Origin: Opitutia bacterium
GTDB taxonomy: Bacteria > Verrucomicrobiota > Verrucomicrobiia > Opitutales > Opitutaceae
Assembly (NCBI GenBank): GCA_016217545.1
Contig: JACRHT010000017.1
Span: forward strand, 682,001-746,000
Direction of reading: 5' to 3'
Length of the DNA stretch: 64,000 nucleotides
Part shown: positions 1-27,229 of the stretch, one piece after another
Numbering within the stretch: position 1 is the first letter of the stretch
How the letters are laid out: every line of letters begins with the position of its first letter
Notes under the pieces: generated by a model
What the model was told of the DNA's origin: nothing
The model's input: the letters and a program-made list of their open reading frames with translations, nothing else
Database searches by the model: none
Program-made: the position numbers and the translations under genes

Positions 1-2519
1 TCGTAGCCGATCACCGCATGCGTCGCGTCCACATAGCGCACCCAAATCACATCCGCCGCGCCGGTCCGTCCGGTCACGAGCAACGGCTCCGCGCGTCCGA
101 TCGGCAGCTTCTCCGGCCAGCGCAACGTCAGCGCAATCGGGCCGAAATCGGCCGGCGGCTCCGGCCATGCGGACAACCGCTCCGCCGCCAACCGCTCGCC
201 GCGGAAGCGCACATCCGCCGTGCTCGCGCGGATGGCGTTGTAGCCGAATGCCACCTCGCTCGCCAACGCCGGATGATAGTGCCGGGCCGCACGCAGCACT
301 TCGCGACCGTTGAAACCCAATCGGAACTCCCCGAGCGTCCGCACACCCGGCGCCGCCACGGGATGCAGCCCGCCGAAATCGACGTCGACCACTTGCTCCT
401 CGAGCGGATCGAACGAAACCACGTCCGACTCGAGCAAGCCGCTGCTCCATGAGTCATGAGCGAACCGCACGCGCCCGGGCGCGACGTAGAAGACGTAAAC
501 CAGATCGCCCGCACCGCTGCGCCCCGTGCTGATCAGTGGCTCGCCGACCATGTTCACGAACGACGGAAAGCGTAGCCTCAGGCGCACCGGCCCGCTGCCG
601 AGCCCCGCCGTCACACTCGCGCGATCGAACGGCAGCACGCGCCAGCTCTCGATGCGCCCGCTGAACCGCCGCTCGATCCAATCGAGCCCGCTCGCCGTCC
701 CGAACTCCCAATCGAGCCGGCTCGAACCGTGAAAAACCGATTCCGCGCGCAGCACCTCGCGGCCATCGCAACGCACACTCACGCGCCGCCGCAGCACGGC
801 GACCTCCGCCGCGCTCCACCCGTCGAAAAACGGATGTTCCGCCGGGGGATACAGGCCGCCGAGATCCACGACAAACTTCCGCCGCTCGCCGGGCCGGGCC
901 TCGAATGCATCTCCGTAGACGCCCGGAAATCCGCGGTGCGCGAAGCCCACGCGGAAGGTCGCCCCGCCCGTGCGCTGCAAGAACACTGCGTCGCGTCCCT
1001 CGGCCGTCGCGAACAGCGGCTGCTGCGCGCCGACCGCGCAATCCGCCATTGTGACCGTTAGTTCGAGCGGACCGTGTTTCCAACTCAGCACACGCTCCGC
1101 CGCGGCCGGCACGAGATTCGCCACATGCGCCCACCGTGTAGTGTCTGCGGGCGGCAGCGTAAAAGCCATCGAATGCAACGCGGTCCAGGCGAGCGACAAC
1201 CCGATCACGATGCGCCCGAGCATGCGCGCGGTCGGCCACGCGAGGAGCGCGACCACCCACGCCGCAACCATCAGCGGACCGAGAAAATCCAGTTCGTAGC
1301 GCTCGAGTTGGTAAGAGTAGAGCAACAGCGTTCCGAGCGTCGTCACCCCCGCCGCCGCCGCGAAGAGAGTGGCTGCCCCGGTCGCCGACGAGCCGGACTC
1401 CGCGCGGCGACTCCACGCGAACCACGGCGCCCCCAGCGCCATCAGCGCCGCCGGCGCCCACGTGAGCAGGCCGAACGTCTCCTCGCGCAGGCCGACGAAT
1501 GGGTAATAGATCGAGTAACGCGCAGGCGAGAGTAGATAGGCGTCGAAACATCGCGCAAAAAACTCCGGGCCGAAGAGCTTGAAATGCCTCATGTCGATCG
1601 CGGCGAATTGATAGCTCAACCCAAACTCAAGCGGATCGCCGAAGCGCGCGTAGTTGTAGCCCGCGAGCGCCGCGCCCACGAGCGCCGCCGGCCCCACCGT
1701 CGCGCCGAGCAATATCAGCGCGGCGCGACGCTCACCGGCACGTTGCCGCCGCCACGCCAGCGCCGCACCCGCGACGCCGAACACGGGCAGCACGAAAAGA
1801 AAATTCGGCCGCGCGCCCACGGCGGCGCCGGCGAAAAAACTTCCGCCCGCCAGCCACGCCGCCACCGCGCCGCGTCCCTCGCGCCGCCACGCCGCGAGCA
1901 GCGCGTTGGCCGCCGCCATCGTGCACGCAAACGCGCACGCGATCGGCACCTGATAAAATTGCGCACCCGCGAGGTTGTAGTGCAGAAACGCGCCCCACCC
2001 CAGCGCCAGCGCCACGCCCGCCGCGGCGCGATCGCCGAGCGTCGCACCACTCTCGCGCGCGGCGCGGAGCACGAAGCGCAGGCCGAGCAGATAGCCGAAT
2101 GCGATGAACACCAGAATCGCCGCCGAATCCGTCAGGTAAGTGCCCGTGACGATCCGCCACGGCGCGAGCACGAGCACCACCGGCGCGACGCCGAAGTAGA
2201 GGTAGTATTTTCCTCCAAAGTAGGTCGCGTCGTGCGCGCGCGGGATGCCCTGCGGCCCCGCCCACGGATTCGCAAGCTGCGCCAGGCGCGGATCCGGCTC
2301 GAGGCTCAACGACGTGCGCCCATGCACGACGGCTTCGGTAAGCAGCTCGTAATAGGCCGCTGGTTCACGGCCGATCAGACGGCCGTTCGTCACGCGCCAC
2401 GTGATCGCCCCATAGGAGAACAGCACCAGCGCCACTGCCGCCAACAGCCATGGCGCCGGACGCCGAGACGCGGCCACCGCGCTCGCCGTCGAGCGAGATT
2501 TCGCCGCCGTCGTGCTCAT
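1..2519 (-). CDS. GT-C-like multi-spanning membrane protein with C-terminal beta-sandwich modules (3'-truncated by window)
   Basis: First 839 codons of a gene whose stop lies beyond the left edge. Starts ATG at 2519, overlapping the TGA of the upstream gene as ATGA. I translated it by hand: an N-terminal membrane helix, a luminal loop with GGKYYLYFGVAPVV, a bundle of hydrophobic helices, then YNYARFGDPLEFG, and after about residue 400 a hydrophilic part built of repeated modules (PLFATAEGRDAVF, PLISTGRSGAGDLVY, PLLVTGRTGAADVIW). The words LYPPAEHPFF and the YLYFG loop recur in the three genes upstream, so it is the fourth member of a tandem paralogue family. Role inferred: lipid-linked-sugar-dependent glycosyltransfer outside the cytoplasmic membrane, with carbohydrate- or surface-binding modules. 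No catalytic residue is proven. Confidence 0.85.
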   Translation of the reverse strand, partial: MSTTAAKSRSTASAVAASRRPAPWLLAAVALVLFSYGAITWRVTNGRLIGREPAAYYELLTEAVVHGRTSLSLEPDPRLAQLANPWAGPQGIPRAHDATYFGGKYYLYFGVAPVVLVLAPWRIVTGTYLTDSAAILVFIAFGYLLGLRFVLRAARESGATLGDRAAAGVALALGWGAFLHYNLAGAQFYQVPIACAFACTMAAANALLAAWRREGRGAVAAWLAGGSFFAGAAVGARPNFLFVLPVFGVAGAALAWRRQRAGERRAALILLGATVGPAALVGAALAGYNYARFGDPLEFGLSYQFAAIDMRHFKLFGPEFFARCFDAYLLSPARYSIYYPFVGLREETFGLLTWAPAALMALGAPWFAWSRRAESGSSATGAATLFAAAAGVTTLGTLLLYSYQLERYELDFLGPLMVAAWVVALLAWPTARMLGRIVIGLSLAWTALHSMAFTLPPADTTRWAHVANLVPAAAERVLSWKHGPLELTVTMADCAVGAQQPLFATAEGRDAVFLQRTGGATFRVGFAHRGFPGVYGDAFEARPGERRKFVVDLGGLYPPAEHPFFDGWSAAEVAVLRRRVSVRCDGREVLRAESVFHGSSRLDWEFGTASGLDWIERRFSGRIESWRVLPFDRASVTAGLGSGPVRLRLRFPSFVNMVGEPLISTGRSGAGDLVYVFYVAPGRVRFAHDSWSSGLLESDVVSFDPLEEQVVDVDFGGLHPVAAPGVRTLGEFRLGFNGREVLRAARHYHPALASEVAFGYNAIRASTADVRFRGERLAAERLSAWPEPPADFGPIALTLRWPEKLPIGRAEPLLVTGRTGAADVIWVRYVDATHAVIGY

Positions 2520-5500
2520 TGCGGCGTCGGCACGTCGGTGCGCACCGAGTAGAGCGTGCCTTCGAATTTCTCGCCGCTGGTCGACATGCCGGCAGGATTG
2601 CGGGCGAACACCACGTCCGCCGGCTGCACCGGATGCAGCGCTTGGTTGGGTTCGTTGAGCACCAGCGCATCGTTCACCCAGACGCGCACACCTTGCCGTG
2701 CGCCGCCGGGCAACAACGTGGCCAGCTCCATGACGACCGTGTGCACGCCGGGCGGCAGCGCGAATGGCGCGCTCTCGGCGCCGCCGTAGCCCCAGTGGTC
2801 GATGCCCGCGACGTAGCGCCCTCCTCCCACCGGACGCAGATAGACCGAATCGGCCGCCCCCGCTTTGCCGGCCAGCAGGAGCGGTTGGCTGCGGAGAAAT
2901 CCATCCTCGGGCACGCTGAACCTCAGACGCACGCGGCCGGGCAATGTCGGTGCATGGGCAGCCTCCGCTGACTGCCGCAGCGCCGTGCCGCGCCATTCGC
3001 CCTCGAGCGCCCGCGCCTCGGCCGGAGCCGCCGTGAAGAAATCGGTCAGCGCCGTTAGCACGATCTTGCCGCCCTGCTCCACCTCGAGAAGCCCGCGGCC
3101 CTTCTCGTCGGCGGCGAGGCGTGCTTGCGGTAACTCCACATGCAAAGCTGCGCCGCTGGCGTCGAGGGTTTGCCCGCTCCACACCACGCGGTCCTCATCA
3201 GCCCAGCCAAGCCGCGGCGCCGCCGCGGGCGTATCGCGCCGCCATACGATCGCTGCGCGCGACCCGTCGCCGCGGCGCCACGCGATGATCGTGCCGCGCG
3301 TGCCACGGAACGTTGCGGCCGTGAACGCCGGCGCATCGAGCGCCCCGCTCGCGGCCGTGTGGAGCGGACGCAACCGCATGCCTTCAAGCATTTCGCCGGC
3401 GAACGAGCGTCGCGCACCGGAGGCCTGCACGAGGTTCGCGCCGAGCACGATTTCCGCCGGGGTCGATGGGTGCGCGCCCTTGCCGAGAACGAGCACTTCG
3501 CGGCCGTTCCAGCGCACTCGCGGCGGCGCACCGTCGGCGAGTTCGATGCGGTCGCCCTCCGTCCAACCAAGGGGATCTCGAGCGAACGGCAGTTCCACCT
3601 CGACGAACTGCGGTTGCTGGTAGTCGACGGCAAATTCCTCCGACTGCTCATCGCCGGCGGAAAATCGATCATGCACCAGCCGCACAAACCCGGGCCGCGT
3701 AAATATCACATACAGCATGTCACAGCGCGGATAGCCGCCGGTGACGACCAGCGGCTCTGCCAGTCCGAAACGATCGCGCGGCAACGTCAGCGAGAGGCGG
3801 ATTGTCCCCGCGCGCGCCAGCCGCGCCGCCACCCAGCTGTCATCTAGCGGCGTCGAGCCCGGGGCGAGAATGCGCCCTGGAAAAACCGCGTCCGGCGAAC
3901 GACCGATCCGCCAGCTTCCCCACCGCACCTGCGTCGGCGAGGTGTCGTGGCTCGGCACGTCGCGTTCAAACCGCAACTGCCCGTCGACCGCGATGCGCAA
4001 CCGGCGCTTGAGCACCGCGCGCTCATCAGCGGTGCGCGCGCCATACCACGCGTGACGCACCGGCGGCAGGAGGAAGGCCCCCGTCACTCGCACGCGGCTG
4101 CGTGCGCCGGGCTGGAAATCGAACCACTCGCCGGCGGCCGTGCCGTATTCCCAGTGCTGGTAGACAAAACGCGCGCGACGCCCGCCGTCGAAGTCGACCC
4201 ACACGCCGTCGTCGAAACCTGTCGCGCCGGCCGACAGCAGCGGATGCCGTCCACCCGCCCCTTCCGCGGGCCACTGCAACTCCGCCGTCTGGTCGCCGAC
4301 GTTCTTGAATAGTCCCGGAGCGAGCCGGGCGACAAATGCGTCCGCGCGCGAAGCCGTCTCGCGATAGCGGGCCTGATCGGTCGTGGCGAAGAACCCATGC
4401 ACCTGCATGCTCGCGAGCACGTTGAAAAGCGCCGCACCGAGGACGAAGAGCCCGCTGCCCGCCGCGAGCACCCGCAACGCCGTGCGCCGCTCGACGAACG
4501 CCAGCCCGCACACCCCAAGCGTGAGCCACACCAGCGCCGGATGGAAATCCAGCATGTAACGATTCGCGCGCACGCCCGTCAGGCTCGTCACGAGCAGATT
4601 GCCGCCGAACCACACGGCGACCGGCAGCGCAGCCAACGCGAACTCGCCCAGCGCGCGCCAGCGCCGCGCCGCGAGTGCCGACACCGCGGCGAGCGCGGCG
4701 ACCAGCACCCAGGCGAACTCACCATGCACATGCTCACGACCAATGTAGTCCACCGGCTTCGGCGGCTCCTCCGCCGGCGCCAAGAACGGGAAGTAGACGC
4801 TCAGCTGCGGCGGCGCGAAATAGTAGAGCGGTATGTTGTGCGCGAGATTCGTGCCGCGAAACATCCGCTGCGGATTCAGGCCGAGTTGATAGCTGTGGCC
4901 GAATTCCAGCACGCTGCCGAAGCGCGCGTAGTTGTAGCCCGCCAACCCAGCACCGATCGGCGCCGCGCCGGCCGCCGCGAACGCCACGCACGCCACCGCG
5001 CGCCGCATCCCGCCGCCTTGCACACGGGCGGTGAGCCACGCACCGAGCGTGAGCGCGAGCAGCGCGACCGGCGCGAGATTCGCGCGCGAGCCGATCGCGA
5101 GGCCGCATGCGATGCCAGCCGCGACGAGCCAGCGTGCCGGCCGCGGACTCCGCGCCGCGCGCGCGAGCGCCCAGAGCATCAGCGCCCCGAACACCCAGCC
5201 CGCCGTGATGGCGACTTCGTAAAAGAGCGGACGCCGCAGCGTCGACGGCATCACCGTGCAAAGACCCAGCGCGAGCACAGCGAGCATGTCCCAACTCCGT
5301 CCGAGCGCCGGGAAAAAGCGCCGGCGCATCTCGCGCCACCAGAGCAGAGAGACCGCAAGCGCAGCGAGCGCGAGCACGAGCGCCGCCACCGCCACCGGCA
5401 GGTCATTTCCCGTCAGCGCCGCGAACGGCCAGAACAGCAGCACAACCGGCGCGACGCCGAAATACAGGTAATAGCGGTCGCGGTAGAGACTCGCATCGAG

Positions 5501-5767
5501 CAGATACGGCGCGCGACCCGGCCGCTGCTCGGGCGGGAGCTTGAGCAGTTCCGGGTCCGGCTTCGCATCCATCCAGAGATGGCCTTGCTGGAAACCATCG
5601 ACGAGCAGGTTGTAGTAATCGCGCTTCGGTCCGTCGATGCGCACGTCTTCCGCCGTCGTCAGCACCGTCCACCAGTAAAACCATGCGACGAGCGCCACCG
5701 TCGCCGCGACTGCTGCCGCGCCCCGCCAGCGGACGAGAGGCCGAGTCTGCACCGTCGAACCGCTCAT
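2516..5767 (-). CDS. GT-C-like multi-spanning membrane protein with C-terminal beta-sandwich modules
   Basis: 1083 aa. The ATG at 5767 is chosen because it overlaps the upstream stop as ATGA (5767-5764); the open frame extends 48 codons further but into the upstream gene. Residues 1-40 hold one membrane helix; a loop with YNLLVDGFQQGHLWMD and DRYYLYFGVAPVVLLFWP follows; then roughly ten hydrophobic segments, with YNYARFGSVLEFGHSYQLG between them. The C-terminal half is soluble and made of modules with PLLSAGATGFDDGV, PLVVTGG and PLLLAGKAGAADSVY followed by DHWGYG-type strands, as in its three neighbours. It resembles the topology of GT-C glycosyltransferases with a periplasmic binding domain, but I cannot name a characterised family. 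Translational coupling on both sides suggests one operon. Confidence 0.88.
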   Translation of the reverse strand: MSGSTVQTRPLVRWRGAAAVAATVALVAWFYWWTVLTTAEDVRIDGPKRDYYNLLVDGFQQGHLWMDAKPDPELLKLPPEQRPGRAPYLLDASLYRDRYYLYFGVAPVVLLFWPFAALTGNDLPVAVAALVLALAALAVSLLWWREMRRRFFPALGRSWDMLAVLALGLCTVMPSTLRRPLFYEVAITAGWVFGALMLWALARAARSPRPARWLVAAGIACGLAIGSRANLAPVALLALTLGAWLTARVQGGGMRRAVACVAFAAAGAAPIGAGLAGYNYARFGSVLEFGHSYQLGLNPQRMFRGTNLAHNIPLYYFAPPQLSVYFPFLAPAEEPPKPVDYIGREHVHGEFAWVLVAALAAVSALAARRWRALGEFALAALPVAVWFGGNLLVTSLTGVRANRYMLDFHPALVWLTLGVCGLAFVERRTALRVLAAGSGLFVLGAALFNVLASMQVHGFFATTDQARYRETASRADAFVARLAPGLFKNVGDQTAELQWPAEGAGGRHPLLSAGATGFDDGVWVDFDGGRRARFVYQHWEYGTAAGEWFDFQPGARSRVRVTGAFLLPPVRHAWYGARTADERAVLKRRLRIAVDGQLRFERDVPSHDTSPTQVRWGSWRIGRSPDAVFPGRILAPGSTPLDDSWVAARLARAGTIRLSLTLPRDRFGLAEPLVVTGGYPRCDMLYVIFTRPGFVRLVHDRFSAGDEQSEEFAVDYQQPQFVEVELPFARDPLGWTEGDRIELADGAPPRVRWNGREVLVLGKGAHPSTPAEIVLGANLVQASGARRSFAGEMLEGMRLRPLHTAASGALDAPAFTAATFRGTRGTIIAWRRGDGSRAAIVWRRDTPAAAPRLGWADEDRVVWSGQTLDASGAALHVELPQARLAADEKGRGLLEVEQGGKIVLTALTDFFTAAPAEARALEGEWRGTALRQSAEAAHAPTLPGRVRLRFSVPEDGFLRSQPLLLAGKAGAADSVYLRPVGGGRYVAGIDHWGYGGAESAPFALPPGVHTVVMELATLLPGGARQGVRVWVNDALVLNEPNQALHPVQPADVVFARNPAGMSTSGEKFEGTLYSVRTDVPTPQ

Positions 5768-8700
5768 GGTTTCTCGTTGCCGAGCGGCACCTGCCGCACG
5801 TCGAGCAGCACGCTCGTCAACTCCGGCGCAGCCACGGACGAGCCCGCGCGATTTTCGCCGAGCACCAACGTCTCGCTGGCTGCAGGATAAAACGACACCT
5901 CCGTCTCCCACACCACGCGGCCGTCAACACGCACGCGCAACGGCCCCTTCTGTGCCGCGCCATTCCCGCCGAGCGTGGGGAACGCGGGCAGCTCGATCGC
6001 GAGCGCATGTGCTTCGCCGTCCGCCCAGGCAAACTCCGGCCCGCTCGTCGCCGAGTAACCCCAGTGATCGTAGAGCAACCGCGCGACACCCGGACGCGAC
6101 CAGTCGATCGCGAGCGTGTTCGCCGCGCCGGCCTTGCCGGTCGCCACCAGCGGCTGTGTGCCAACGCCACGTCCACCGAGGGTGAGTTCGACGCCCGCGA
6201 AGGGGCCCGCGCGCCACGCGGCGGGCGCCGGCTCACGCCGCCAATCGCCGATGCGTCCGCGGAAGAGCGTGGCCGCCGCGTTCGAACCGATGGCGTTGCG
6301 CGCGACGCGAACGACGCCCGCATCCGCCGGCGGCGGCTCCGTGCGAAGCCACCAAATCGGTTTCCCGTCCTGCCACACCGCAAGCGTGCGCCGCAATGCG
6401 ACTAGGGGCGAGCCGGGCGCGATCGCCAGCAACGAGCCGAGCCGCACGCGCAGCGCCAGCGCGCGCTCCGCACCGAGCGGGAAGATCGGGCTCTCGACCA
6501 GGCCGGCACCCCAGCGTTCGTAGAAAAACTTGAAGCTCTCCTCGGCCGGCGCGACGGCGAGCAGATCGGAGCGCCCGCTCTCGCCAACGGTCACCAGCGG
6601 CTGAGCGAGACCGACCTCATTCGCCGGCACCGCGAACGCCGTAGTCCACGCCACGCCGGGCGCCGGTAGTTTCACCGCGAGCGAAACATCCCCGCCCGCC
6701 CCCGTATCCACGAGCGGCGGCGGCAAGCCGGTGCGCGTCACGCGATCGATCACACCCGAGAAAACCGCATCGCGTCCGCTGCGGCGATCCGCGCCGGCAG
6801 CGACTGCATCGGGCGGAATCTCCGGCGCGCCCGCCGCGCGATCGAGCAGCATGCGGCCATCAACGGCGATGCGCACCCAGTCCTTGACGCTCGCGATTTC
6901 GAGCGGCGACCGATCAGCGAAGAGCGGATGCTCCGCCGGCGGATACAGCGCGCCCGTCTCGAGGCGCACCCGGTGCGGACGACCGCGCGGAAGCGCGATG
7001 GGCTCGGTTTCGATCAACTCCTGCCGCGCGGACTCGAAGCTGAATTTCACGCGGTCGTCGTCGAGGTGCTCGACGTAGAACATCGCGCTGCCCGGCACAT
7101 GGCGGCCGAGCGCGAGCAGCGGCTCGCGACCCTTGCCGGGGCGGATCGAGAAATAGACTTCCATCTCGACCGGGCCTGTGGATTGGCCGGTGAGCTTTTC
7201 CCACCACGCGATCGGTGTATTGAAGGCCCGGCCGAGCGCGCGATACGCTTCGGGATTGCGATCCAGCAGCATGCCGTGGAGCGCGCTGCTACCGAGAAAC
7301 GCCGCGAGGCCCGACACGCCCGCGGCGACGGCGAAGAGCGCGCGACCGAGGCCGGGTTTGGCCGCGCGTTGCTCCCATGCGGCGAAGCCTACGAGGCCGC
7401 ACAACAGCCACCACGGAAGGAAATCCGCTTCGTAGCGCGAGACGGCGGTGTTGAAGCAGAGCATCAACGCGGTCGTCACGAGCGCCATTGCGCCGCACAC
7501 GCCGACGAGCACCGCGGCGTCCGCCGGCCAGTCGTCGCGCCGCCGCGCGAGTTGCCTGCCAGTCAGCGCGACGAGCAGCAGCACCGGACAAACCCAGAAC
7601 AAGCCGTAGACGAATTCCGCCGAGTAGTAGCCGGCCGGCGGCGTGGGCAGTTCCGGTTGGGAGAGAAACGGGAAATAGCGGTTCACCTCCGGCACCACCC
7701 AGAAATATGCGCGGAGGTTGAAGGGCACGTAGCTGAGGCTGAAGTGTCGCGCCTTCGCTTCGTAAACGGACGTGAGCTGGTAATTCAGGCCGAACTCGAG
7801 CGGATTGCCGAAACGCGCCTGGTTGTAGGCGAGCAGCGCCGCCACGCACAGCGCGAGCGGCACCCCGGCCCAGAGGCAGTGCCGCACGAAGGTCGGCAGC
7901 CACCCCGCGCCGTCACGCCGGGCGGCGCGCGCGGTCAGCGCCAGCACGAGCACGGCAAGACCGGCGCCCGCGACGACGAGCGTGGGACGGCAACCGACCG
8001 CGAGGCCGAGGCACAAGCCGGCGAGCGCGAGCCAGCGCGACGGACGCGGCGCGCGCAACGCCGCGTAGGAGCACGCGACGAAGGCCGAGAGATAGAACTG
8101 GCCGGCGGCGATGGGCAGTTCCCAAAAATTCGCGCGTCGCGCCAGCACGAGCAGCCCGCCGCAGAGTCCCAGCACCACGAGGCCGCCGATGCGGGTCAGG
8201 AGGCTCGCGCGGGGAAATTGATCGCGAACGACGCGCAACCAGAGCGCCGCGAGCATCCAGAACGCCGCGAGCACGAACGTCGCGAGCGCATACGGGAACG
8301 GCAGCTCCTGTCCGGTGAGCAGCTTGAACGGCGCGAGTAGCGTCACCACCGGCGCCACGCCGAAGTAGAGATAGAATTTGCCGTTCGCGTAGCTGACGTC
8401 GGGCGGCACGAACAGATCGGCCGGGCGCTGCGTCGGGTCCCAGGGCGTGGCGAGTTGCGCGAGCCGCGGCGGCACCGGCAGATCGAGTGCGAGCGTGCCG
8501 TGCTGGAAGCCGCGGAGGAGGCGGTTGTAGTAATCGCCTTGCTCGCCACCGAGGCGCGGAAATTCCCATTTTCCGAGCACGGTCCAGAGCAGCAACGCGC
8601 TCAGCGCGAGCGTGACGACGAGTCCGAGCAGGCGACCCCAAGCGTCGCGCGCGGTGAGTTCGCGTTTGGCGGCGTCCGGATGGAAGACGCGCCATTGCAG

Positions 8701-9060
8701 CAGCAGGAAGCTGGCGGTCATCTGCGTGAGGTTGGCCACGCCCGCTGCGAACCATGCGGGGCAGCCGAACACGGTCTGTGCGAGCGTGAAAACCGGCCAC
8801 TGGATCAGGAAGGTGACGAGCACCGTGTGCAGGTAATCGGCGACCTTGCGGCTATCCGTCGGCGTCGCGTCGGCGAAGGTCCAGCGCTTGTTAAGCAGGT
8901 AGTGGAGCAGCAGCGCCGGCGGATAGGCCGCGAGGAAGGCCAGTTGCGGCGCGAGCACGCGGCCAAACGCCCAGTTCAGCGCCATGAAAAAAAACATGAC
9001 GGTCACGCCCACCGTCCCGAAACGGAGGAGGCGCAGCAGGGATTCACGCGGCAACTTCAT
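5764..9060 (-). CDS. GtrA-domain fusion to GT-C-like membrane protein with C-terminal beta-sandwich modules
   Basis: 1098 aa from the ATG at 9060; a TTG at 9102 would add 14 residues and lies closer to the upstream stop, so the start is unsure. Residues about 1-130 are a GtrA-like domain: four hydrophobic helices, LLRFGTVGV at the start and the typical LNKRWTF after helix two. GtrA proteins are thought to flip bactoprenol-linked sugars. Then comes the core shared with the flanking genes: YNRLLRGFQHGTLALD, WDPTQRP, GKFYLYFGVAPVVTLLAP, a helix bundle, and YNQARFGNPLEFGLNYQL. The last ~450 residues carry at least three modules (LLALGRHVPGSAMFY, PLVTVGESGRSD, PLVATGKAGAAN) and LYPPAEHPLF. It therefore joins a putative flippase and a putative periplasmic glycosyltransferase in one chain. 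Confidence 0.88.
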   Translation of the reverse strand: MKLPRESLLRLLRFGTVGVTVMFFFMALNWAFGRVLAPQLAFLAAYPPALLLHYLLNKRWTFADATPTDSRKVADYLHTVLVTFLIQWPVFTLAQTVFGCPAWFAAGVANLTQMTASFLLLQWRVFHPDAAKRELTARDAWGRLLGLVVTLALSALLLWTVLGKWEFPRLGGEQGDYYNRLLRGFQHGTLALDLPVPPRLAQLATPWDPTQRPADLFVPPDVSYANGKFYLYFGVAPVVTLLAPFKLLTGQELPFPYALATFVLAAFWMLAALWLRVVRDQFPRASLLTRIGGLVVLGLCGGLLVLARRANFWELPIAAGQFYLSAFVACSYAALRAPRPSRWLALAGLCLGLAVGCRPTLVVAGAGLAVLVLALTARAARRDGAGWLPTFVRHCLWAGVPLALCVAALLAYNQARFGNPLEFGLNYQLTSVYEAKARHFSLSYVPFNLRAYFWVVPEVNRYFPFLSQPELPTPPAGYYSAEFVYGLFWVCPVLLLVALTGRQLARRRDDWPADAAVLVGVCGAMALVTTALMLCFNTAVSRYEADFLPWWLLCGLVGFAAWEQRAAKPGLGRALFAVAAGVSGLAAFLGSSALHGMLLDRNPEAYRALGRAFNTPIAWWEKLTGQSTGPVEMEVYFSIRPGKGREPLLALGRHVPGSAMFYVEHLDDDRVKFSFESARQELIETEPIALPRGRPHRVRLETGALYPPAEHPLFADRSPLEIASVKDWVRIAVDGRMLLDRAAGAPEIPPDAVAAGADRRSGRDAVFSGVIDRVTRTGLPPPLVDTGAGGDVSLAVKLPAPGVAWTTAFAVPANEVGLAQPLVTVGESGRSDLLAVAPAEESFKFFYERWGAGLVESPIFPLGAERALALRVRLGSLLAIAPGSPLVALRRTLAVWQDGKPIWWLRTEPPPADAGVVRVARNAIGSNAAATLFRGRIGDWRREPAPAAWRAGPFAGVELTLGGRGVGTQPLVATGKAGAANTLAIDWSRPGVARLLYDHWGYSATSGPEFAWADGEAHALAIELPAFPTLGGNGAAQKGPLRVRVDGRVVWETEVSFYPAASETLVLGENRAGSSVAAPELTSVLLDVRQVPLGNEKP

Positions 9061-9120
9061 CAACGCAGCGTCCAAGAAGCGGGAGCGCTCAGGCGCTGAC
9101 AACGCAATTCCCGCCGCGTT

Positions 9121-11511
9121 TCACTCGCGGGTGGCGGAGACGATCCGGCCGGAAAACCGCGGAGAGGAGGTGGAGGCGCCGATGGAGTTCACCCCGATGC
9201 GCGCCGGGCCGGCGGGGGGGTGAAAATCCCGGGGCGCGTCGAGCAGCGTGCGACCGTTGAGCTTCACCACGAGCCCGCTCGTGCTGCCGTCGCGCCGGAG
9301 CGGTGGTGCGCTGATCCAGAAATCGAGGTGCTCACCGGGAACCACGTCTATTAGCTCGGATTCGATGGCCCCCGAGCCCCAGTGATCGTGCCCGATCACG
9401 ATGCGATTCTCCGCGACGCGCTGGAGGAAAATCAAATCGCCCGCGCCGGTGCGCCCCGAGCACACGAGCGGGAGACTGCCGGGGCCGGTCCAGCCGGGGA
9501 GCTCCACGATGAGGCGGAGCGGGCCGGTCTCCTCGCGCGCGAGCGATTCCGCGGTGAGTGGCACGCGGCGTTGCGCGACGATGCGGCCGGAGAAATCGCC
9601 CTTGAAGGCCGGCCGCAGCGGACCGCTCGTGCCGAGCGACGGCGCAAACTCCGTCGCCTCGAAACAGCTCGCCTCACGCAGCGCGAGCGCCTCCTTGCCG
9701 TTCACGAGCACCCGCACCTGGTTCTTTCGCCGCGCAATCTGATCAGGCGTCATCCCGCGGAAAAGCGGATGCGACGCCGGCGGATACAGCGAACCCATCT
9801 CGATCTGGATGACATTCTCGCGCCCGGGCAGGTAATCGACGAACGGCCCGATGCCGCCACCGTAGGCCGTGTGCTCGAAACCGAAGCGAATGCGATGCCC
9901 TTCGACGCGCTGCACGTAAAGATAGTCGGCGAGGAAATGGCGCCCCGTCGCAACAAGGCACTCGACGTCACCTAGATGCGTTTCCGGAAATACGACCCGT
10001 AGTTCCAGCGGCCCGTAGTCGACGCCGCGCACGCGCTCGAACGTCCACGGCAACCAGTTCGCTCCGCGCGCGACGCGCTCGAATTCCACCGGGAACAGCA
10101 CTTCGAACAGCCGGTTGTGCTGCGCGCTCATCATCGCGTTGAACGCCGCCGACCACAGCGCAAGCGCTGCGCAAACGGCCACCATCCACCGCCGCACGTC
10201 GCCGGCGAACGCACCAGTGAGCCCGAGCGCCCCGATGCTGCCGACGAGGATCCATGCCGGAAAAAAGTCCACGATGTAGCGATTCGTCGAGCCGCCGAAG
10301 GTCGACAGCACGAGCAACGCCCCCGCGCCGGACAGCGCGAGCATCGCCGTCCACACGCCCGCCACGCCGCGCGGGCGCCAGCGCGGCACGAGCAGCGCGA
10401 GACCGAGCAGCGCCCACGGCGCGCCGAGCAGCACGCCTTGCACGTCCTCGGTGCCGATGTAGCCCGCGGGTGCCGGCGGCACATTCGCCACCGTCAGGAA
10501 CGGGAAATACGCGGTGAACTGCGGCAGGGTCAGCAGGTAGAGACGAAGATTATAGAGGATGAACGCGCCGCCGAACGCCGACTGCTTCGTGTGGTCCTCC
10601 ATGCCCGCGAGTTGGTAAGTGTGGCCCGACTCGAACGGGTTGCCGAAACGCGCGTAATTGTGCCACGCCATCAGCGCACCCACGACGAGCAGCGGCGCCA
10701 GCCCGGCCGCGAACAGCCGCCACCACGTCGCGCGCCGCCAGAAATTGCCCCACCCCGCCTCCTGTGCCGCACGCCACAACGGCGCCAGCATCACGAAACC
10801 CGCCGCGAGATACACCGGGCGCGACGCGATCGCGAGACCGAGCGCGAGCCCGGCGCCGGCGAACCACCCCGCGCGCCGCGGCGAATCCAGTGCGCGCCAC
10901 GTGCACGCGAGCGTCGTCATGAACAACGCGTGGGCACACGCGATCGCGATTTCCCACACGTCCGGTCGGCGCAGGAACGGCACCACGAAATTCCCCGCGC
11001 CGATCGCGAGCAGGCCAAGCCAGTAGATCGCCCCGCGCGCGCCGGCGCGGCGGCAAATCGCACGCCACAGCCACGCCGCAACGATCCAGCCGCACCCGGC
11101 GAAGAACAGCACCGCATAGCGCGGCGTGACGAAATTGCCGGTGAGAGCGTGCCCCGGCCAGTGCAGCAGCAGCGCCGGCGCGGCGCCGAAGTAAAGGTAG
11201 TGCTTGCCTCGGAAATACGAGGCGTCGTGCACCCCGTGCGCACCGCGCTGCGTCGGGTCGTAGGGATTGGCCATCGCATCGAGCACCGGGTCCGGCGCGA
11301 CGTCCATCGCGAGTTGTCCCTTCAGCCAGCCGCGCAAGAGCAAGTTGTAGTGATCGCTGCCGCCGCGATCAAACGCTGGCAATTTTCCGGACGGATCGAT
11401 CGTCCATTGATAGAATGCCAGCACCGCCAGCAACACCGCGACGGTCAACGCACGCTCCAACCAAAGGCGGCCGGCGCGAACCTCAGGGATCTGGGGGGAA
11501 AGTTTACACAC
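9121..11511 (-). CDS. GT-C-like multi-spanning membrane protein with C-terminal beta-sandwich modules
   Basis: 796 aa with a GTG start at 11511; no clear ribosome site, so the first residues are uncertain. Probably the first gene of the minus-strand operon. One helix near residues 20-38, then YNLLLRGWLKGQLAMD, YDPTQRGAHGVHDASYFRG and KHYLYFGAAPALLLHWP, a helix bundle, HNYARFGNPFESGHTYQLAG, and a C-terminal region with two modules (CLVATGRHFLADYLY; PLVCSGRTGAGDLIF then DHWGSG) and LYPPASHPLFRG. It is the shortest paralogue because it has fewer modules. A seven-C run lies in the coding strand near the end (9214-9220). Likely function as for its neighbours: transfer of lipid-linked sugars on the periplasmic face; unproven. 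Confidence 0.88.
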   Translation of the reverse strand: MCKLSPQIPEVRAGRLWLERALTVAVLLAVLAFYQWTIDPSGKLPAFDRGGSDHYNLLLRGWLKGQLAMDVAPDPVLDAMANPYDPTQRGAHGVHDASYFRGKHYLYFGAAPALLLHWPGHALTGNFVTPRYAVLFFAGCGWIVAAWLWRAICRRAGARGAIYWLGLLAIGAGNFVVPFLRRPDVWEIAIACAHALFMTTLACTWRALDSPRRAGWFAGAGLALGLAIASRPVYLAAGFVMLAPLWRAAQEAGWGNFWRRATWWRLFAAGLAPLLVVGALMAWHNYARFGNPFESGHTYQLAGMEDHTKQSAFGGAFILYNLRLYLLTLPQFTAYFPFLTVANVPPAPAGYIGTEDVQGVLLGAPWALLGLALLVPRWRPRGVAGVWTAMLALSGAGALLVLSTFGGSTNRYIVDFFPAWILVGSIGALGLTGAFAGDVRRWMVAVCAALALWSAAFNAMMSAQHNRLFEVLFPVEFERVARGANWLPWTFERVRGVDYGPLELRVVFPETHLGDVECLVATGRHFLADYLYVQRVEGHRIRFGFEHTAYGGGIGPFVDYLPGRENVIQIEMGSLYPPASHPLFRGMTPDQIARRKNQVRVLVNGKEALALREASCFEATEFAPSLGTSGPLRPAFKGDFSGRIVAQRRVPLTAESLAREETGPLRLIVELPGWTGPGSLPLVCSGRTGAGDLIFLQRVAENRIVIGHDHWGSGAIESELIDVVPGEHLDFWISAPPLRRDGSTSGLVVKLNGRTLLDAPRDFHPPAGPARIGVNSIGASTSSPRFSGRIVSATRE

Positions 11512-11908: not shown

Positions 11909-12928
11909 ATGTGTGACAAGTCGCAAAACCCTTTGCGCTTCGCGGTGATCGGTTGCGGTCTCATCGGCCGCAAACGCGTCAACGGCCTCAAGCCCCACCC
12001 GATTCTCTATACCTGCGACCTCGACGCCGCCCGCGCGGCCGATCTCGCCGCGCTCACGCCGGGATGCCGGGGCATCACCGACTACAAGGCCGTCCTCGCC
12101 GATCCGCAGGTCGACGCCGTCGTCGTCGCCACGCTCAACAGCGCCCTCGCGCCCATCACCCTCGACGCCGTCCGCGCCGGCAAACACGTGCTCGTCGAAA
12201 AACCCGGAGCGCTCAACGCCGCCCAACTCCGCGAGATCCAAACCGCCGCCGAGAGGACCGGCGCGAAGGTCCGCATCGGCTACAACCACCGCTTCCACCC
12301 CGCCCTGCGCAAGGCACGCGAACTCTTCGAAGCCGGCGCGCTCGGACCGATGATGTTCCTGCGCGGTCGCTACGGCCATGGCGGACGGCACGGCTACGAC
12401 CGCGAATGGCGCGCCAACCCCGCGCTCTCCGGCGGCGGCGAACTGATCGACCAAGGCGTGCATTTGATCGACCTCGCCGGCTGGTTCCTCGGCGAGTTCA
12501 CCCGCATCGAGGGGCACGCCACGACCAATTTCTGGGACATGAAGGTTGACGACAACGCCTTCATCTCGCTCCGCACCGGGGCTGATCAAACCGCTTGGCT
12601 GCACGCCAGCTGCACGGAGTGGAAAAACATGTTCTCGCTCGAGCTCTATGGTCGCACCGGCAAGATCATCATCGAAGGCCTCGGTGGCAGCTACGGCAAC
12701 GAGACGCTCACCTATTATCCGATGCCGGCGGAGAAACTCGGCCAACGCCCCGAAGCCCAGATCTCCAACTACGCGGGCCACACCGACGATTCGTGGGCGC
12801 TCGAAACGGCCGCGTTCATCGAAGACATCCGGCTCGGCCGCCAGCCGCAGCCGGGCTTGGCTGAAGGCATCCGCACGCTGGAAATCGTGGAAACGATCTA
12901 CCGCAGCAGCGGTTATCCGCGCCCGTAG
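11909..12928 (+). CDS. Gfo/Idh/MocA-family NAD(P)-dependent sugar oxidoreductase
   Basis: 339 aa, ATG start. N-terminal Rossmann domain with VIGCGLIG (glycines at 15, 17 and 20) and the family's LVEKPGA at residues 95-101, whose lysine is the usual catalytic/cofactor residue. Next come GYNHRFHP and the C-terminal alpha/beta domain with GGGELIDQGVHLIDLAGWFLG, containing the catalytic-type H-x-x-D. Family members oxidise or reduce carbonyls of sugars and nucleotide sugars. It opens a plus-strand run that continues with the GDP-heptose genes 72 bp later, so it may act on a heptose derivative or another glycan precursor; the substrate cannot be read from sequence. Confidence 0.9.
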   Translation: MCDKSQNPLRFAVIGCGLIGRKRVNGLKPHPILYTCDLDAARAADLAALTPGCRGITDYKAVLADPQVDAVVVATLNSALAPITLDAVRAGKHVLVEKPGALNAAQLREIQTAAERTGAKVRIGYNHRFHPALRKARELFEAGALGPMMFLRGRYGHGGRHGYDREWRANPALSGGGELIDQGVHLIDLAGWFLGEFTRIEGHATTNFWDMKVDDNAFISLRTGADQTAWLHASCTEWKNMFSLELYGRTGKIIIEGLGGSYGNETLTYYPMPAEKLGQRPEAQISNYAGHTDDSWALETAAFIEDIRLGRQPQPGLAEGIRTLEIVETIYRSSGYPRP

Positions 12929-13000: not shown

Positions 13001-13984
13001 ATGATCATCACGCGTTCCCCCCTGCGCATTTCCCTTGGCGGCGGCGGCACTGATTTGCCGTCCTACTACCGCGAGCACACCGGCTTCCTCGTCGCTGCGG
13101 CGATCGACAAATACGTCTACATCACGAAGCACCGCACGTTTCAGCAGGACATCATCGTCAAATATTCGAAGCTCGAGCGCGTGCAGTCCGTCGATCAGGT
13201 CGAGCACCCGATCGTCCGCGAGGCGCTGAAGCTCACCGGCGTGACCGATCCGCACATCGAGCTCACCTCGATGGCCGACATCCCCGGCGGCACCGGTCTC
13301 GGCTCCTCCGGCAGCTTCACGACCGCGCTGCTGAAGGCGCTCCACACCTACAAGAAAAACATCGTCTCGCCTGCCGAACTGGCCGAACAGGCCTGCGACA
13401 TCGAACTCAACAAACTCGGCGAACCCATCGGCAAGCAGGATCAATATATCGCGGCCATCGGCGGCATCACCGCTTTCACGTTCCATAAGGACGGCCGCGT
13501 CGAATACCGCCCCTGCAACATCTCCGAGGAGACGCTCTACAATCTCGAGGACAACCTCCTCCTCTTCTTCACCGGCTACTCGCGCTCCGCCTCCGCGATC
13601 CTCAAGGACCAGAACGACAAGTCCAAGCAGAACGACAAGGCGATGCTCGACAACCTGCACTTCACGAAGGAGCTCGGCTACAAGTCGCTCGAGTGCCTCG
13701 AGACGGGCAATCTCGAGGAGTTCGCCCGCCTCATGGATGTCCACTGGCAGCGCAAGAAGGCCCGCAGCTCCGGCATGTCGAACGCGCACATCAACGAGTG
13801 GTATGACTACGCGATGGCCCACGGCGCGCTCGGCGGCAAACTCATCGGCGCCGGCGGCGGTGGCTTCCTCATGTTCTACGCGGCCGACAAGACCAAGCTG
13901 CGCCACGCGATGCGCGAGAAGGGCCTGCAGGAGGTCCGCTTCCGCTTCGACTTCGAGGGCAGCAAGGTTGTCGCGCAAAACTGA
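13001..13984 (+). CDS. hddA: D-glycero-D-manno-heptose 7-phosphate kinase
   Basis: 327 aa GHMP kinase. The N-terminus ITRSPLRISLGGGGTD and the ATP-binding motif GGTGLGSSGSF (about residues 95-105) are typical, and the C-terminal GAGGGGFLMFY is the third GHMP motif. Its similarity is specifically to HddA, which phosphorylates D-glycero-D-manno-heptose 7-phosphate at C1 in the alpha configuration, the branch leading to GDP-heptose (HldE makes the beta form for ADP-heptose). The presence of hddC, gmhA and gmhB within 4 kb supports this. Length is normal. Confidence 0.92.
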   Translation: MIITRSPLRISLGGGGTDLPSYYREHTGFLVAAAIDKYVYITKHRTFQQDIIVKYSKLERVQSVDQVEHPIVREALKLTGVTDPHIELTSMADIPGGTGLGSSGSFTTALLKALHTYKKNIVSPAELAEQACDIELNKLGEPIGKQDQYIAAIGGITAFTFHKDGRVEYRPCNISEETLYNLEDNLLLFFTGYSRSASAILKDQNDKSKQNDKAMLDNLHFTKELGYKSLECLETGNLEEFARLMDVHWQRKKARSSGMSNAHINEWYDYAMAHGALGGKLIGAGGGGFLMFYAADKTKLRHAMREKGLQEVRFRFDFEGSKVVAQN

Positions 13985-14056: not shown

Positions 14057-15217
14057 GTGCGCAGCCGGCTCCCGACACTCGCTCTGCTCGCCGGCCTCCT
14101 CGCCGGCTTCGCGCTCGCCGTGTTCCTCGGCGCAGCCGCCGAAGGCTACAGCAAACCGGATCGCTTCCGGCGCTTTCATCCGTTCATCAGCCCGGAGTCG
14201 CTCTTCTACCCGACGTTCGCGTCGCTGGAGAATCTCGCCCTCGCCCACTGGCAGCCCGGCAAGACGCTCGTCATCGTCGGTGGCAACTCCGTGCTCAACG
14301 GCGTCGGCCAGCCCGAGGACCGCCTCTGGAGCCTGCGCCTGCAGGAGTTGCTCGGCCCCAATTTCGTGGTCGTCAACCTGTCGTTCCGCGGCGCTTTCCC
14401 CAGCGAGGCAGGCGCCCTCGTCGCCGAGTCGTTACTCCGCCGCGACGTGCCTGTCGTCTACATCGCCAACACGTCGCCCGGCGGCGTCGTGCGTGCTTTC
14501 GAAGGTTTTTACCGTCACTTCTTCTGGGCCGCGCGCGCCCGCGGCGCGCTGCACGATTGGCCTTTGCGAGAAAAAGACCTCTCCTTCCGCCTCGCCTCGC
14601 TGCCCGACAACACACGCCGCGAACGCGAAGAAGAGATGCGCGGTGCCGCGCTTGATCGGTGGTTTCATTTCCAGGCGCTCTGGCAACACGTCGCCTACCG
14701 CTACGCATTCACCGTCTGGAATCGCGTGACCGGCACCTCCTCGTGGCGCGCGCGCGATGCATTTCCCGACGACGAAACCCCGCCTCCGCCCGTCGCCGAA
14801 CGCTTCGGGCCGAATCTCGTGCGCGAGATGGAAATCGTCCGCAGCGTCACCGCGCCGCTAGCCACGCCCACGCCGAACGGCGGCTGGAGCGTCGACACCA
14901 CGCGCCTCGCCTCCGCCGGCGACGACCTTGAGAAGACCTTCCCTCCCTCGCTACGCCCCCGGATGCTGATGCTCCTGAGCCAAAGTTCGCCCTACCACCG
15001 CACGCACCTCACCGCCGCCGAACGCGCGCGCGACGACGCCGTGTTCGCCGCCTACGCCGCGCTCTGGCGCGAACACGGTATCGCCAGTGCGATCTACGGC
15101 ACGGATTTCGCCGTGGAGGACTTCCACGACCGCACGCACCTCACGCCTTCCGGCGGCGACAAACTCGCCGAACTCGTTGCGCGAGAAATTCGCAGTCTCG
15201 CCCAGAAAAAACCATGA
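14057..15217 (+). CDS. Membrane-anchored SGNH-hydrolase-like protein
   Basis: 386 aa from a GTG. One hydrophobic segment at residues 7-28 acts as signal anchor; the rest is probably periplasmic. The first block reads VGGNSVLNG with Ser78 in the place of the SGNH nucleophile, and the last block has D358-R-T-H361 followed by LTPSGGDKL, matching the D-x-x-H of SGNH/DltD/AlgX-type esterases and acyltransferases. Such proteins add or remove acetyl groups on surface polysaccharides. It sits in the heptose operon and its stop overlaps the start of the next small gene (ATGA), so an acylation system acting on the same glycan is plausible. No MBOAT partner lies in the window. Confidence 0.7.
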   Translation: MRSRLPTLALLAGLLAGFALAVFLGAAAEGYSKPDRFRRFHPFISPESLFYPTFASLENLALAHWQPGKTLVIVGGNSVLNGVGQPEDRLWSLRLQELLGPNFVVVNLSFRGAFPSEAGALVAESLLRRDVPVVYIANTSPGGVVRAFEGFYRHFFWAARARGALHDWPLREKDLSFRLASLPDNTRREREEEMRGAALDRWFHFQALWQHVAYRYAFTVWNRVTGTSSWRARDAFPDDETPPPPVAERFGPNLVREMEIVRSVTAPLATPTPNGGWSVDTTRLASAGDDLEKTFPPSLRPRMLMLLSQSSPYHRTHLTAAERARDDAVFAAYAALWREHGIASAIYGTDFAVEDFHDRTHLTPSGGDKLAELVAREIRSLAQKKP

Positions 15218-15402: not shown

Positions 15403-16119
15403 ATGAAACCACAGGATCTCCCCGTCGCCCTCCTCGCCGGTGGCCTCGCCACCCGGCTCCGCCCCATCACCGAAAAGGTGCCTAAGCTCCTCGTCGAGGT
15501 CGCGGGCGAGCCGTTTTTCTCGCACCAAATTCGCCTCCTCAAGAGCCAGGGGCTCACACGCGTCGTGCTCTGTGTCGGCTACCTCGGCGAGAAAATCGTC
15601 GAGGAATACGGCGACGGCTCGAAGTGGGGCATGCAGCTCGATTACTCGTTCGATGGCGAGAAACTGATGGGCACCGGCGGCGCGCTCATCCGCGCCCTTC
15701 CCAAGCTCGGCGACGCGTTCTACGTGCTCTACGGCGACTCCTACCTGCCCGTCGACTACCGCGCCGTCGGCCAGTCGTTCCTCGATTCCGGCAAGCTCGG
15801 CCTGATGACCGTTTTCGAAAACCGGGAAGCCTACGATGCCAGCAACGTCTGGTGGGAAGACGGCCGCATCCGCCTCTATTCTAAAAAAGAAAAAGTCCCG
15901 CAGATGCGCCATATCGACTACGGCCTGAGCCTCTTCCGCGCCGCGGCCTTCGATGGCTACCCGCGCGACGCCGTCGTCGACCTCGCCGCGGTGCAAACCG
16001 ACCTCGTGCACCGCGGCGAACTCGCCGGCTATGAGATGAAACAGCGCTTCTACGAAATCGGCTCGCACACCGGCCTGCAGGAACTCGACCGCTTGCTGCG
16101 TGCCGGAGGGACGTCGTGA
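15403..16119 (+). CDS. hddC: D-glycero-alpha-D-manno-heptose 1-phosphate guanylyltransferase
   Basis: 238 aa nucleotidyltransferase. The nucleotide-binding signature LAGGLATRLRPITEKVPKLL fills residues ~10-30, with FYVLYGDSYLPVD as the metal-binding Asp motif near residue 108 and GTGGALIRAL in between. Family members join NTP and a sugar 1-phosphate. The HddC assignment (GTP plus heptose 1-phosphate giving GDP-heptose) rests on the flanking hddA, gmhA and gmhB; without them it could equally be a mannose- or glucose-1-phosphate transferase. Confidence 0.85.
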   Translation: MKPQDLPVALLAGGLATRLRPITEKVPKLLVEVAGEPFFSHQIRLLKSQGLTRVVLCVGYLGEKIVEEYGDGSKWGMQLDYSFDGEKLMGTGGALIRALPKLGDAFYVLYGDSYLPVDYRAVGQSFLDSGKLGLMTVFENREAYDASNVWWEDGRIRLYSKKEKVPQMRHIDYGLSLFRAAAFDGYPRDAVVDLAAVQTDLVHRGELAGYEMKQRFYEIGSHTGLQELDRLLRAGGTS

Positions 16120-16222
16120 GCATTCGGCGACAAGCGTGATCCCGGCACCCGCTATCCACTCGACACAGTTTTCGTCGAATATTCGACTTCACTCCCCCCT
16201 CAACCAACACCTGTATCGCTCC

Positions 16223-16828
16223 ATGTCCTATTCTGTTCAGCACCTCAAGGAGACCGCTGAAATTGTCTCCAAGCTCAACCCGGTCGATTGCGAGAAATGC
16301 GTCGCCGAGCTCGTGGCCGTGCGCGCCCGCGGCGGCCGCCTGTTCATCCTCGGCGTCGGCGGCAGCGCCGCCAATGCTTCGCACGCGGTGAACGATTTCC
16401 GCAAGATTGCGGGCATCGAGTGCTACGCCCCGACCGACAACGTCTCCGAACTCACCGCCCGCACCAACGACGAAGGTTGGGCCAGCGTGTTTGTCGAGTG
16501 GCTCCGCGGCTCGAAGCTCAACAGCAAGGACTGCCTCTTCGTCCTCTCCGTCGGCGGCGGCAACCTCGAGAAGAACGTCTCGCCGGGCTTCATCTCCGCC
16601 ATCCAGCTCGCGAAGCAGGTCGGTGCACGCGTCATCGGCATCCTCGGCAAGGACGGCGGCTACACCGCCACTCAGGCCGATGCCTGCGTCATCGTCCCGA
16701 CCGTCAACGCCAATAACATCACCCCGCACTCCGAGGCCTTCCAAGCCGTCGTCTGGCATCTCTTCGTGTCGCACCCCGACCTCAAGGTGAACCAGACCAA
16801 GTGGGAAAGCGTCGTCGCGAAAAAGTGA
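16223..16828 (+). CDS. gmhA: Sedoheptulose 7-phosphate isomerase (SIS domain)
   Basis: 201 aa starting at the ATG at 16223; an open frame continues 41 codons upstream over hddC's end, but that stretch has no domain character. The protein is one SIS domain with FILGVGGSAANASHAVNDF near residues 38-56, LFVLSVGGGN near 106 and ending in a helix with a conserved His-containing segment (PHSEAFQAVVWHLF). GmhA isomerises sedoheptulose 7-phosphate to D-glycero-D-manno-heptose 7-phosphate, the first committed step of the pathway. A 103-bp gap precedes it, so it may have its own promoter. Confidence 0.87.
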   Translation: MSYSVQHLKETAEIVSKLNPVDCEKCVAELVAVRARGGRLFILGVGGSAANASHAVNDFRKIAGIECYAPTDNVSELTARTNDEGWASVFVEWLRGSKLNSKDCLFVLSVGGGNLEKNVSPGFISAIQLAKQVGARVIGILGKDGGYTATQADACVIVPTVNANNITPHSEAFQAVVWHLFVSHPDLKVNQTKWESVVAKK

Positions 16829-25323: not shown

Positions 25324-25381
25324 GCCGCAACGGGTTTCCTTTTGACGCCGCCGCGGCGCGCGAGTGACATTTCCCTGTCTC

Positions 25382-27190: not shown

Positions 27191-27229
27191 GTCTTGCCCG
27201 GCAACGCGGCGCTCGAAGACCCTTGCCCG

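Follow-up and report, generated by a model that had tools for sequence, protein, structure and literature searches.

What would four very large membrane proteins, encoded side by side and mostly outside any named family, do for their host? The question is raised by a window of 64,000 nucleotides from an Opitutia bacterium (assembly GCA_016217545.1, contig JACRHT010000017.1, positions 682,001 to 746,000). Positions 1-11511 of this window hold four contiguous, homologous minus-strand genes in the order g4-g3-g2-g1. In each encoded protein, a core of about 490 residues precedes a tail of modules that measure about 140-150 residues apiece. The array is probably a gtr-like cassette for extracytoplasmic glycan decoration, with the cores as predicted GT-C glycosyltransferases. 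It is a variant of known gtr-like systems, not a new kind of system. Its architecture, in which predicted GT-C enzymes with tandem galectin- or laminin-G-like tails stand in a cassette with one GtrA, is real and conserved, and no description of it was found in sequence and open-access literature searches.

The initial annotation, made from the sequence alone, had proposed four tandem homologues whose successive genes overlap or nearly abut, and both points are borne out. With g4 as query against its own genome, the other three array proteins are recovered at E values of 9e-76 to 2e-81. The g3/g2 and g2/g1 junctions are ATGA overlaps. The gap between g4 and g3 is 18 bases if g3 starts at TTG 9102, and 60 bases if the alternative ATG 9060 is used. 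The genome contains seven full-length copies: g1-g4, a pair just beyond the window's left end (L012, L016) and L011 on contig C12. Identity of g4 to its six paralogues is 28-34%. Tails of two to four modules had been expected; g4 has two, g1 and g3 have three, and g2 has three clear modules plus a diverged stretch. That the modules might be unrelated to one another is contradicted by a single HHalign comparison of first-position and later module profiles (probability 99.9, E 1.4e-33). Common ancestry of the cores and of the modules is directly supported. The sequence words listed in the annotation fare unevenly. YLYFG is common to all four genes. YNxARFGxxxExG is strict in three (g4 has HN), HWG occurs in three (it is missing from g1) and LYPPxxHP[LF]F in three (missing from g2). 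PLxxTGxxGxxD is strict in g1 alone, where it occurs twice, and is found in g4 with a one-letter relaxation. The earlier gene account also needs correction, as g1 is incomplete within the window and an N-terminal GtrA domain of g3 had been passed over.

The absence of a named family for core or module, suspected from the outset, withstands profile searches of Pfam, NCBIfam and the PDB. No Pfam or NCBIfam family, whether PMT_2 (PF13231), YfhO (PF09586) or another named core family, matches g2, g4 or the in-window part of g1 at E <= 10. The sole named match of g3 is GtrA/DPMS (PF04138) at residues 27-140, with an E value of 1.1e-9 and 38.9 bits against a curated cut-off of 26.1. No module among the 96 in alignment A3, taken from 158 non-redundant modules (213 in all), matches Pfam at E <= 0.01, laminin-G and galectin families included. 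Profiles A1 and A2 match no GT-C chain in the PDB at E <= 10, solved Emb and AftD chains included; A2 comprises the four window proteins and 103 of 106 references (L053:16436, L085:15379 and L086:6031 are left out). The module signal in PDB sequences is weak and confined to laminin-G (agrin, E 0.0021; CSPG4, E 0.018). The open-access literature searched contains no description of a GT-C with a laminin-G or jelly-roll tail, nor a YfhO or clan classification. On lectin-like and carbohydrate-binding tails it offers papers on AftD and on galectins, among them one on EmbC; on GtrA fused to a GT-C it offers work on teichoic acid glycosylation; and what it has on Opitutaceae polysaccharide genes is, to judge by the title, unrelated.

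Structure prediction gives a clearer answer, and confident models agree with the GT-C-like core and jelly-roll modules first proposed. The AlphaFold2 model of g4, built from 107 related sequences, has a mean pLDDT of 94.3 and a pTM of 0.92. Its core (residues about 11-480) resembles chain B of the Pmt1-Pmt2 complex (Z 20.7), ALG12 (19.1), ArnT (18.9) and AftB (18.7), with alignments to the Pmt chain, ArnT and AftB that span 340-375 residues; Emb is also among the fold matches. On this model the core has a multi-helix GT-C membrane fold. In g4 numbering, Y107, P112, R231, R288, F289, G296, P337, G359 and R411 are invariant in all 107 aligned members, position 415 is always acidic (Asp or Glu), and D96 is kept in 105. 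The tail matches the laminin LG4-5 pair (Foldseek E 3.1e-7) as well as galectins. Over the whole tail, TM-scores against the laminin pair are just 0.14/0.25, because the arrangement of the two domains differs. Modelled alone (96 sequences), g4 module 2 reaches a pLDDT of 95.6 and a pTM of 0.90. It matches agrin G2 (E 1.3e-4, TM-scores 0.57/0.48), galectin-11 (8.4e-4), sialidase CBM40 (9.8e-4) and CBM66 (2.8e-3), and on realignment galectin-7 comes top (Z 10.8, rmsd 2.5 over 110 residues), with many rows tied. The modules are accordingly modelled as laminin-G/galectin (ConA-like) jelly rolls. Support for both folds comes from confident prediction. The best-conserved module positions are mostly glycine, proline and core hydrophobics; a His-Trp-Gly stretch (H in 70 of 96, W in 57 of 95, G in 70 of 95) and two Asp positions (82 and 75 of 96) are common.

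Related loci, 76 in number, come from the best 80 of 108 candidates in a contig scan of GTDB-species genomes with one peptide pattern. These are not independent, because several share a genome (for example EW11, palsa_1470, palsa_1380 and Umea_bin-02646), and L035/L075 and L053/L057 are near-identical pairs. Open reading frames (ORFs) were taken from stop to stop, so that some N-terminal extensions are noncoding, and their counts include duplicates from overlapping stretches of the window's own genome. Core pieces of L028, L059 and L078 lie in different frames and were left unmended. Labels of 72 of the 76 loci are Opitutaceae, Opitutus, Lacunisphaera, Opitutales, Opitutae/Opitutia or plain Verrucomicrobia; the other four are Akkermansiaceae (L028), Terriglobia (L098), Bryobacterales (L099) and Caenarcanales (L103). 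Within the window's family, 36 of 150 genomes have the module. A search of 387 genomes across the phylum, which scored at most 10 candidates in each, returned it in 4, and these all belong to the same family.

The genomic setting fits a role in surface glycan decoration. The array lies beside a conserved flank (table 1), which continues past the SIS-domain gene with a transaldolase-like protein and suggests a heptose-type sugar pathway. To the left, g1 is followed by a FAD oxidoreductase gene and then by an SDR gene. The SDR and Gfo/Idh genes are the borders of a slot. Where the Gfo/Idh gene is present, a family gene or GtrA is divergent from it within 900 bases in 19 of 22 loci; the remaining three (L032, L062, L064) have such a gene on that side, outside the 900-base divergent rule. 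All 13 loci with both borders, among them the two near-identical pairs, enclose precisely one GtrA, together with one or more family GT-Cs, in a slot of 2.5 to 12.6 kb. Ten slot GtrA ORFs are confirmed over the PF04138 cut-off. The window, with GtrA fused to g3, agrees with this pattern, as do L029, with GtrA fused to a g1-type protein and the SDR gene cut off where the stretch ends, and genome G018. The smallest slots (L034, L036, L037, L046, L053 and L057) consist of one GT-C and GtrA.

Table 1. Features of the array and its right flank (window positions; core and module folds are predicted).
Feature	Position	Strand	Remarks
g4	9121-11511	-	796 aa; GT-C core + 2 modules; first gene of array
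g4 GT-C core, residues 1-498	10018-11511	-	AlphaFold2 model and PDB fold matches
g4 module 1	9559-10023	-	first-position class
g4 module 2	9124-9534	-	folded alone (pLDDT 95.6); galectin/laminin-G-like jelly roll
g3	5764-9102	-	1112 aa; GtrA domain + GT-C core + 3 modules
g3 GtrA (PF04138) domain	8683-9024	-	
g3 module 1	6727-7185	-	
g3 module 2	6229-6657	-	
g3 module 3	5785-6207	-	
g2	2516-5767	-	1083 aa; GT-C core + modules 1, 2 + diverged stretch + last module
g2 module 1	3851-4306	-	
g2 module 2	3368-3817	-	
g2 diverged stretch, ~140 residues	about 2948-3367	-	between module 2 and last module
g2 last module	2531-2947	-	
g1	1-2519	-	948 aa; GT-C core + 3 modules; extends 328 bases past the left end of the window, to L009:9673
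g1 module 1	630-1082	-	
g1 module 2	171-602	-	
g1 module 3, start only	1-152	-	rest beyond the window (L009:9691-10152)
Gfo/Idh/MocA oxidoreductase	11909-12928	+	conserved right border of slot; divergent from g4, 397 bases away
GHMP (heptose-type) kinase	13001-13984	+	conserved flank
SGNH-like protein	14057-15217	+	386 residues; no Pfam match at E <= 0.01
Nucleotidyltransferase	15403-16119	+	conserved flank
SIS-domain (phosphoheptose isomerase-like) protein	16100-16828	+	conserved flank

The same slot also exists without the cassette. Among relatives with the Gfo/Idh gene, stretches were read for five of seven (G009 and G010, on short contigs, were left out). The slot is empty in all three same-genus genomes read (G006, G007, G008), where Gfo/Idh and SDR matches lie about 20 bases apart and HepK, Gfo/Idh, SDR and GTC716 matches are consecutive on one strand. 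No core, module or GtrA was found in the 19-kb stretches of these genomes. Their SDR match (E about 1e-46) is weaker than in other loci, and some 1.3 kb of ORF without an assignment separates it from GTC716 (E 1e-124 to 1e-140); the empty-slot border may therefore be a different SDR. Occupied and empty forms indicate that the array is an optional cassette at a fixed place. The slot forms, the rule of one GtrA per slot and the GtrA fusion are all observed directly. Composition is uninformative about a foreign origin, with 68.5% G+C in the slot against 65.8 and 66.6% in the 20-kb flanks.

Other contents of the slot vary. The slot of G021 (L118:1500-2477) carries GtrA with a 326-residue ORF that has no Pfam match, possibly a different transferase, and no module-bearing GT-C. 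The FAD enzyme beside g1 (L009:8144-9676, window -1856 to -324) is an amine-oxidase-type oxidoreductase that overlaps the end of g1 inside the slot, with homologues (phmmer E < 1e-15) in two of the 76 loci, L038 and L090, both of strain EW11. A pentofuranose (DprE/UbiA) system is not supported: the amine-oxidase type differs from the DprE1 type, and UbiA-family genes were found at C17:465 kb and on C16 but are absent from the cluster.

The GtrA domain of g3 is the only one found in the window's genome. In 18 of the 76 loci, GtrA is fused to a core- or module-bearing ORF or lies within 300 bases of one on the same strand. Elsewhere GtrA is a separate gene next to these GT-Cs, and its fusion in g3 and in L029 is good evidence of cooperation between flippase and transferase. 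A GtrB-like synthase (L018:14291-15223) is encoded in the same locus, about 14 kb from g1, and is the sole one in the stretches read; it was recognised in translations, a regular-expression search for GT2 starts having given no match. Of the components of a gtr system, GtrA and the predicted GT-C are encoded together, while the GtrB-like gene lies in the locus at that distance and is present also where the slot is empty. The glycan-decorating role suggested at the start fits the locus, the GtrA coupling and the occupied and empty slots.

Whether the four enzymes are redundant copies can be judged from their age. In a quick IQ-TREE core tree of 115 rows, g1, g2, g3 and g4 belong to four separate supported sets, and every set includes genes of other genomes, mostly Opitutaceae/Opitutia. 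g2 groups with L029, L035, L075 and L094 (support 100), and L029, L035 and L075 have its layout of two modules, a gap and one module. g3 groups with L094 (100). g1 is in a set of seven with L029, L035, L075, L094, L065 and L069 (99). g4 groups with L033 (96), in a set of six with L028, L029, L030 and L075 (98). The top identity of the paralogues to a member from another genome is 42-54%. In a FastTree tree of 261 modules, the nearest relative always lies in a different protein. For first-position modules it is a first-position module of another protein in 94 of 95 cases (the first module of g6 is counted twice in this figure, via overlapping stretches). Recent local duplication is ruled out by these separate supported groups and by the module tree, and shuffling of modules between positions is hardly seen. 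The old separation of the paralogues, itself directly supported, argues for non-redundant roles of enzymes long kept apart. The initial annotation had suggested specialisation for different sugars or acceptors. The separate old groups support specialisation; different sugars are less well supported, given the single GtrA domain and the one GtrB-like synthase in the stretches read. Differences in acceptor position or linkage are no less likely. The enzymes probably have a single flippase in common, and perhaps a single donor too. The seventh full-length paralogue (L011, G000:C12:717869-720241) may once have belonged to an array, because its nearest relatives, in L035 and L075, sit inside arrays.

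A mechanism can be proposed that is inferred as regards the donor (lipid-linked), the acceptor, the binding of glycan by the modules and the way in which the four enzymes divide the work. (i) The GtrB-like synthase would make a polyprenyl-phosphate sugar in the cytoplasm; the coupling to GtrA is the one, indirect pointer to such a donor. (ii) The GtrA domain fused to g3 would flip the lipid-linked sugar. (iii) The four GT-C cores would transfer it to a surface polysaccharide at the outer face of the inner membrane. (iv) This acceptor would be built in part by the conserved heptose-type flank. (v) The two to four galectin/laminin-G-like modules behind the last membrane helix would hold the acceptor glycan beside the active site. 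An ordered version is conceivable, in which one acceptor is worked on by g4, g3, g2 and g1 in a set sequence. The single GtrA, physically linked to one of these enzymes, would feed them all, and the modules of each enzyme, by their number and kind, would determine the growth stage of the glycan that it accepts. We regard this version as doubtful. If true, glycan decoration could be read from the modules as from a code, with cassettes of them exchanged at a single place in the genome.

Comparison with known systems gives this scheme its precedents. Nearest in function are the gtr operons of Salmonella and Shigella (PMC3688519), GT136 of Citrobacter and the Emb and AftD enzymes. As general background, gtr operons encode a GtrA flippase, a GtrB synthase and a serotype-specific glycosyltransferase; they likewise have one GtrA and a membrane-embedded transferase in a variable and optional cassette whose target is a surface polysaccharide. 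Here, in contrast, several GT-Cs are present per GtrA, GtrA is sometimes fused to a GT-C, the tails are tandem and lectin-like, GtrB lies outside the cassette, and the cassette has a fixed slot within the backbone locus. ORF12 of Citrobacter youngae (GT136) is a GT-C with 11 helices and a C-terminal beta-rich carbohydrate-binding module (CBM) that binds unmodified O polysaccharide (PMC11127046). Its three-component system resembles the present one in pairing a GT-C with a C-terminal beta-rich tail. ORF12 has a single Ig-like CBM and a MATE flippase, whereas two to four galectin/laminin-G-like modules and GtrA are found here, and this cluster is without a UbiA-family (pentofuranose-type) synthase. 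Mycobacterial EmbA/B/C (PMC3044687) and AftD (PMC11127046) combine a GT-C core with C-terminal acceptor-binding, lectin-like CBMs, and tryptophans of the EmbC C-terminal domain matter for acceptor binding and activity (PMC3044687). They differ in module number and sequence family, and the profiles built here match no solved GT-C chain at E <= 10. The modules share their predicted jelly roll with ConA-like lectin folds (laminin-G, galectin, CBM40, CBM66) (Z about 10 for 110 residues, many rows being tied) and differ from them in the lack of Pfam matches noted above. The proposal that the modules hold the acceptor has precedents in the ORF12 CBM and the EmbC C-terminal domain.

Several observations weigh against the decoration scheme. 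A GT-C enzyme would carry a catalytic Asp or Glu in the first extracytoplasmic loop, and in several solved GT-Cs the catalytic Asp is the one near the first helix. D96 is kept in 105 of 107 members, but D53, the Asp nearest that helix in g4, in just 50, which leaves the catalytic residue uncertain. Module residue W711 is kept in just 57 of 95, and no aromatic is universal. GtrB lies outside the operon, is present also where the slot is empty (G006, G007, G008), and occurs in just 16 of the 76 loci, six of them with GtrA, the loci being short stretches. With a single flippase serving four transferases, a diversity of donors lacks an explanation. No homologue of g4 was found in the 12 other genomes of the window's genus, and the lack of a family gene in all 12 indicates that the trait is not typical of the genus. 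The CBM of ORF12 was dispensable under the conditions tested (PMC11127046).

Other explanations account for part of the evidence. The GT-Cs may build or extend a polymer or long side chain stepwise outside the membrane, as mycobacterial Aft and Emb do for arabinan, instead of adding single sugars. The operon's several diverged GT-Cs, whose partners are conserved in L029, L035, L075 and L094, would suit such a pathway, and Emb and AftB are among the fold matches. The smallest slots, with one GT-C and GtrA, and loci that lack the cassette are what an optional decoration predicts, and stepwise polymerisation is unlikely. The best fold match of the core, a yeast Pmt chain, suggests instead protein O-glycosyltransferases of the PMT type with modules that bind surface proteins, as laminin-G domains often do. 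Such a function would be out of place among the GHMP kinase, nucleotidyltransferase, isomerase, GT2 and GT9 genes of a polysaccharide locus. A shared fold shows no function, and ArnT and AftB score nearly the same; this explanation is very improbable.

A further alternative concerns the modules alone and is compatible with decorating cores. They could be spacers or oligomerisation domains that bind no glycan, as the predominance of glycine, proline and hydrophobic residues among their best-kept positions, the want of a universal aromatic and the other uses of galectin and laminin-G folds would allow. The common His-Trp-Gly stretch and Asp positions speak for more than structure. So does the recurrence of the module on YfhO-like, acyltransferase-like and SGNH-like proteins and on a second GT-C core type, as would be expected of a substrate-targeting domain. 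A purely structural role is quite unlikely. Decoration by a gtr-like cassette is the explanation retained.

The module-bearing proteins outside the family are diverse. In the window's own locus, a YfhO-like membrane protein (L018:4520-7543; YfhO match below cut-off) has one C-terminal module. A YfhO-like protein of 1959 residues carries three in both L028 and the Opitutia locus L032, with equal length and layout; this likeness to a locus labelled Akkermansiaceae may reflect a binning error or transfer, the two being indistinguishable. A second type of GT-C core is preceded by a module in L021, L025, L026 and L045 (PMT_2 match of L045 below cut-off). An acyltransferase-like membrane protein encoded in a slot on the opposite strand (L054:13284-14906) has a C-terminal module, and the single-helix protein L028:11014-12153 bears one. 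In L024 (G018), a homologue of the window's SGNH-like protein (29% identity over 389 residues) has a module on its N-terminal side. The window's own locus also encodes a 995-residue protein (L018:7628-10615) with GT9 (heptosyltransferase-type) and GT2 domains, joined by a stretch with weak coiled-coil-type matches, and homologues occur in 8 of the 76 loci. Farther into the window, ORFs 25364-27190 (608 aa) and 27194-30301 (1035 aa) have no Pfam match at E <= 0.01 and no homologues in the 76 loci.

With the array, bacterial glycobiology would gain a GT-C family and a lectin-like module family that are both new, Pfam and NCBIfam having no match for either. The effect of an acceptor-binding module is a question left open for the single CBM of GT136 (PMC11127046). 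The array also offers a natural experiment, in that the backbone locus is the same whether its slot is vacant, carries a single enzyme or carries several. It can be tested directly which sugar each enzyme adds and what acceptor-binding modules contribute to a membrane glycosyltransferase.

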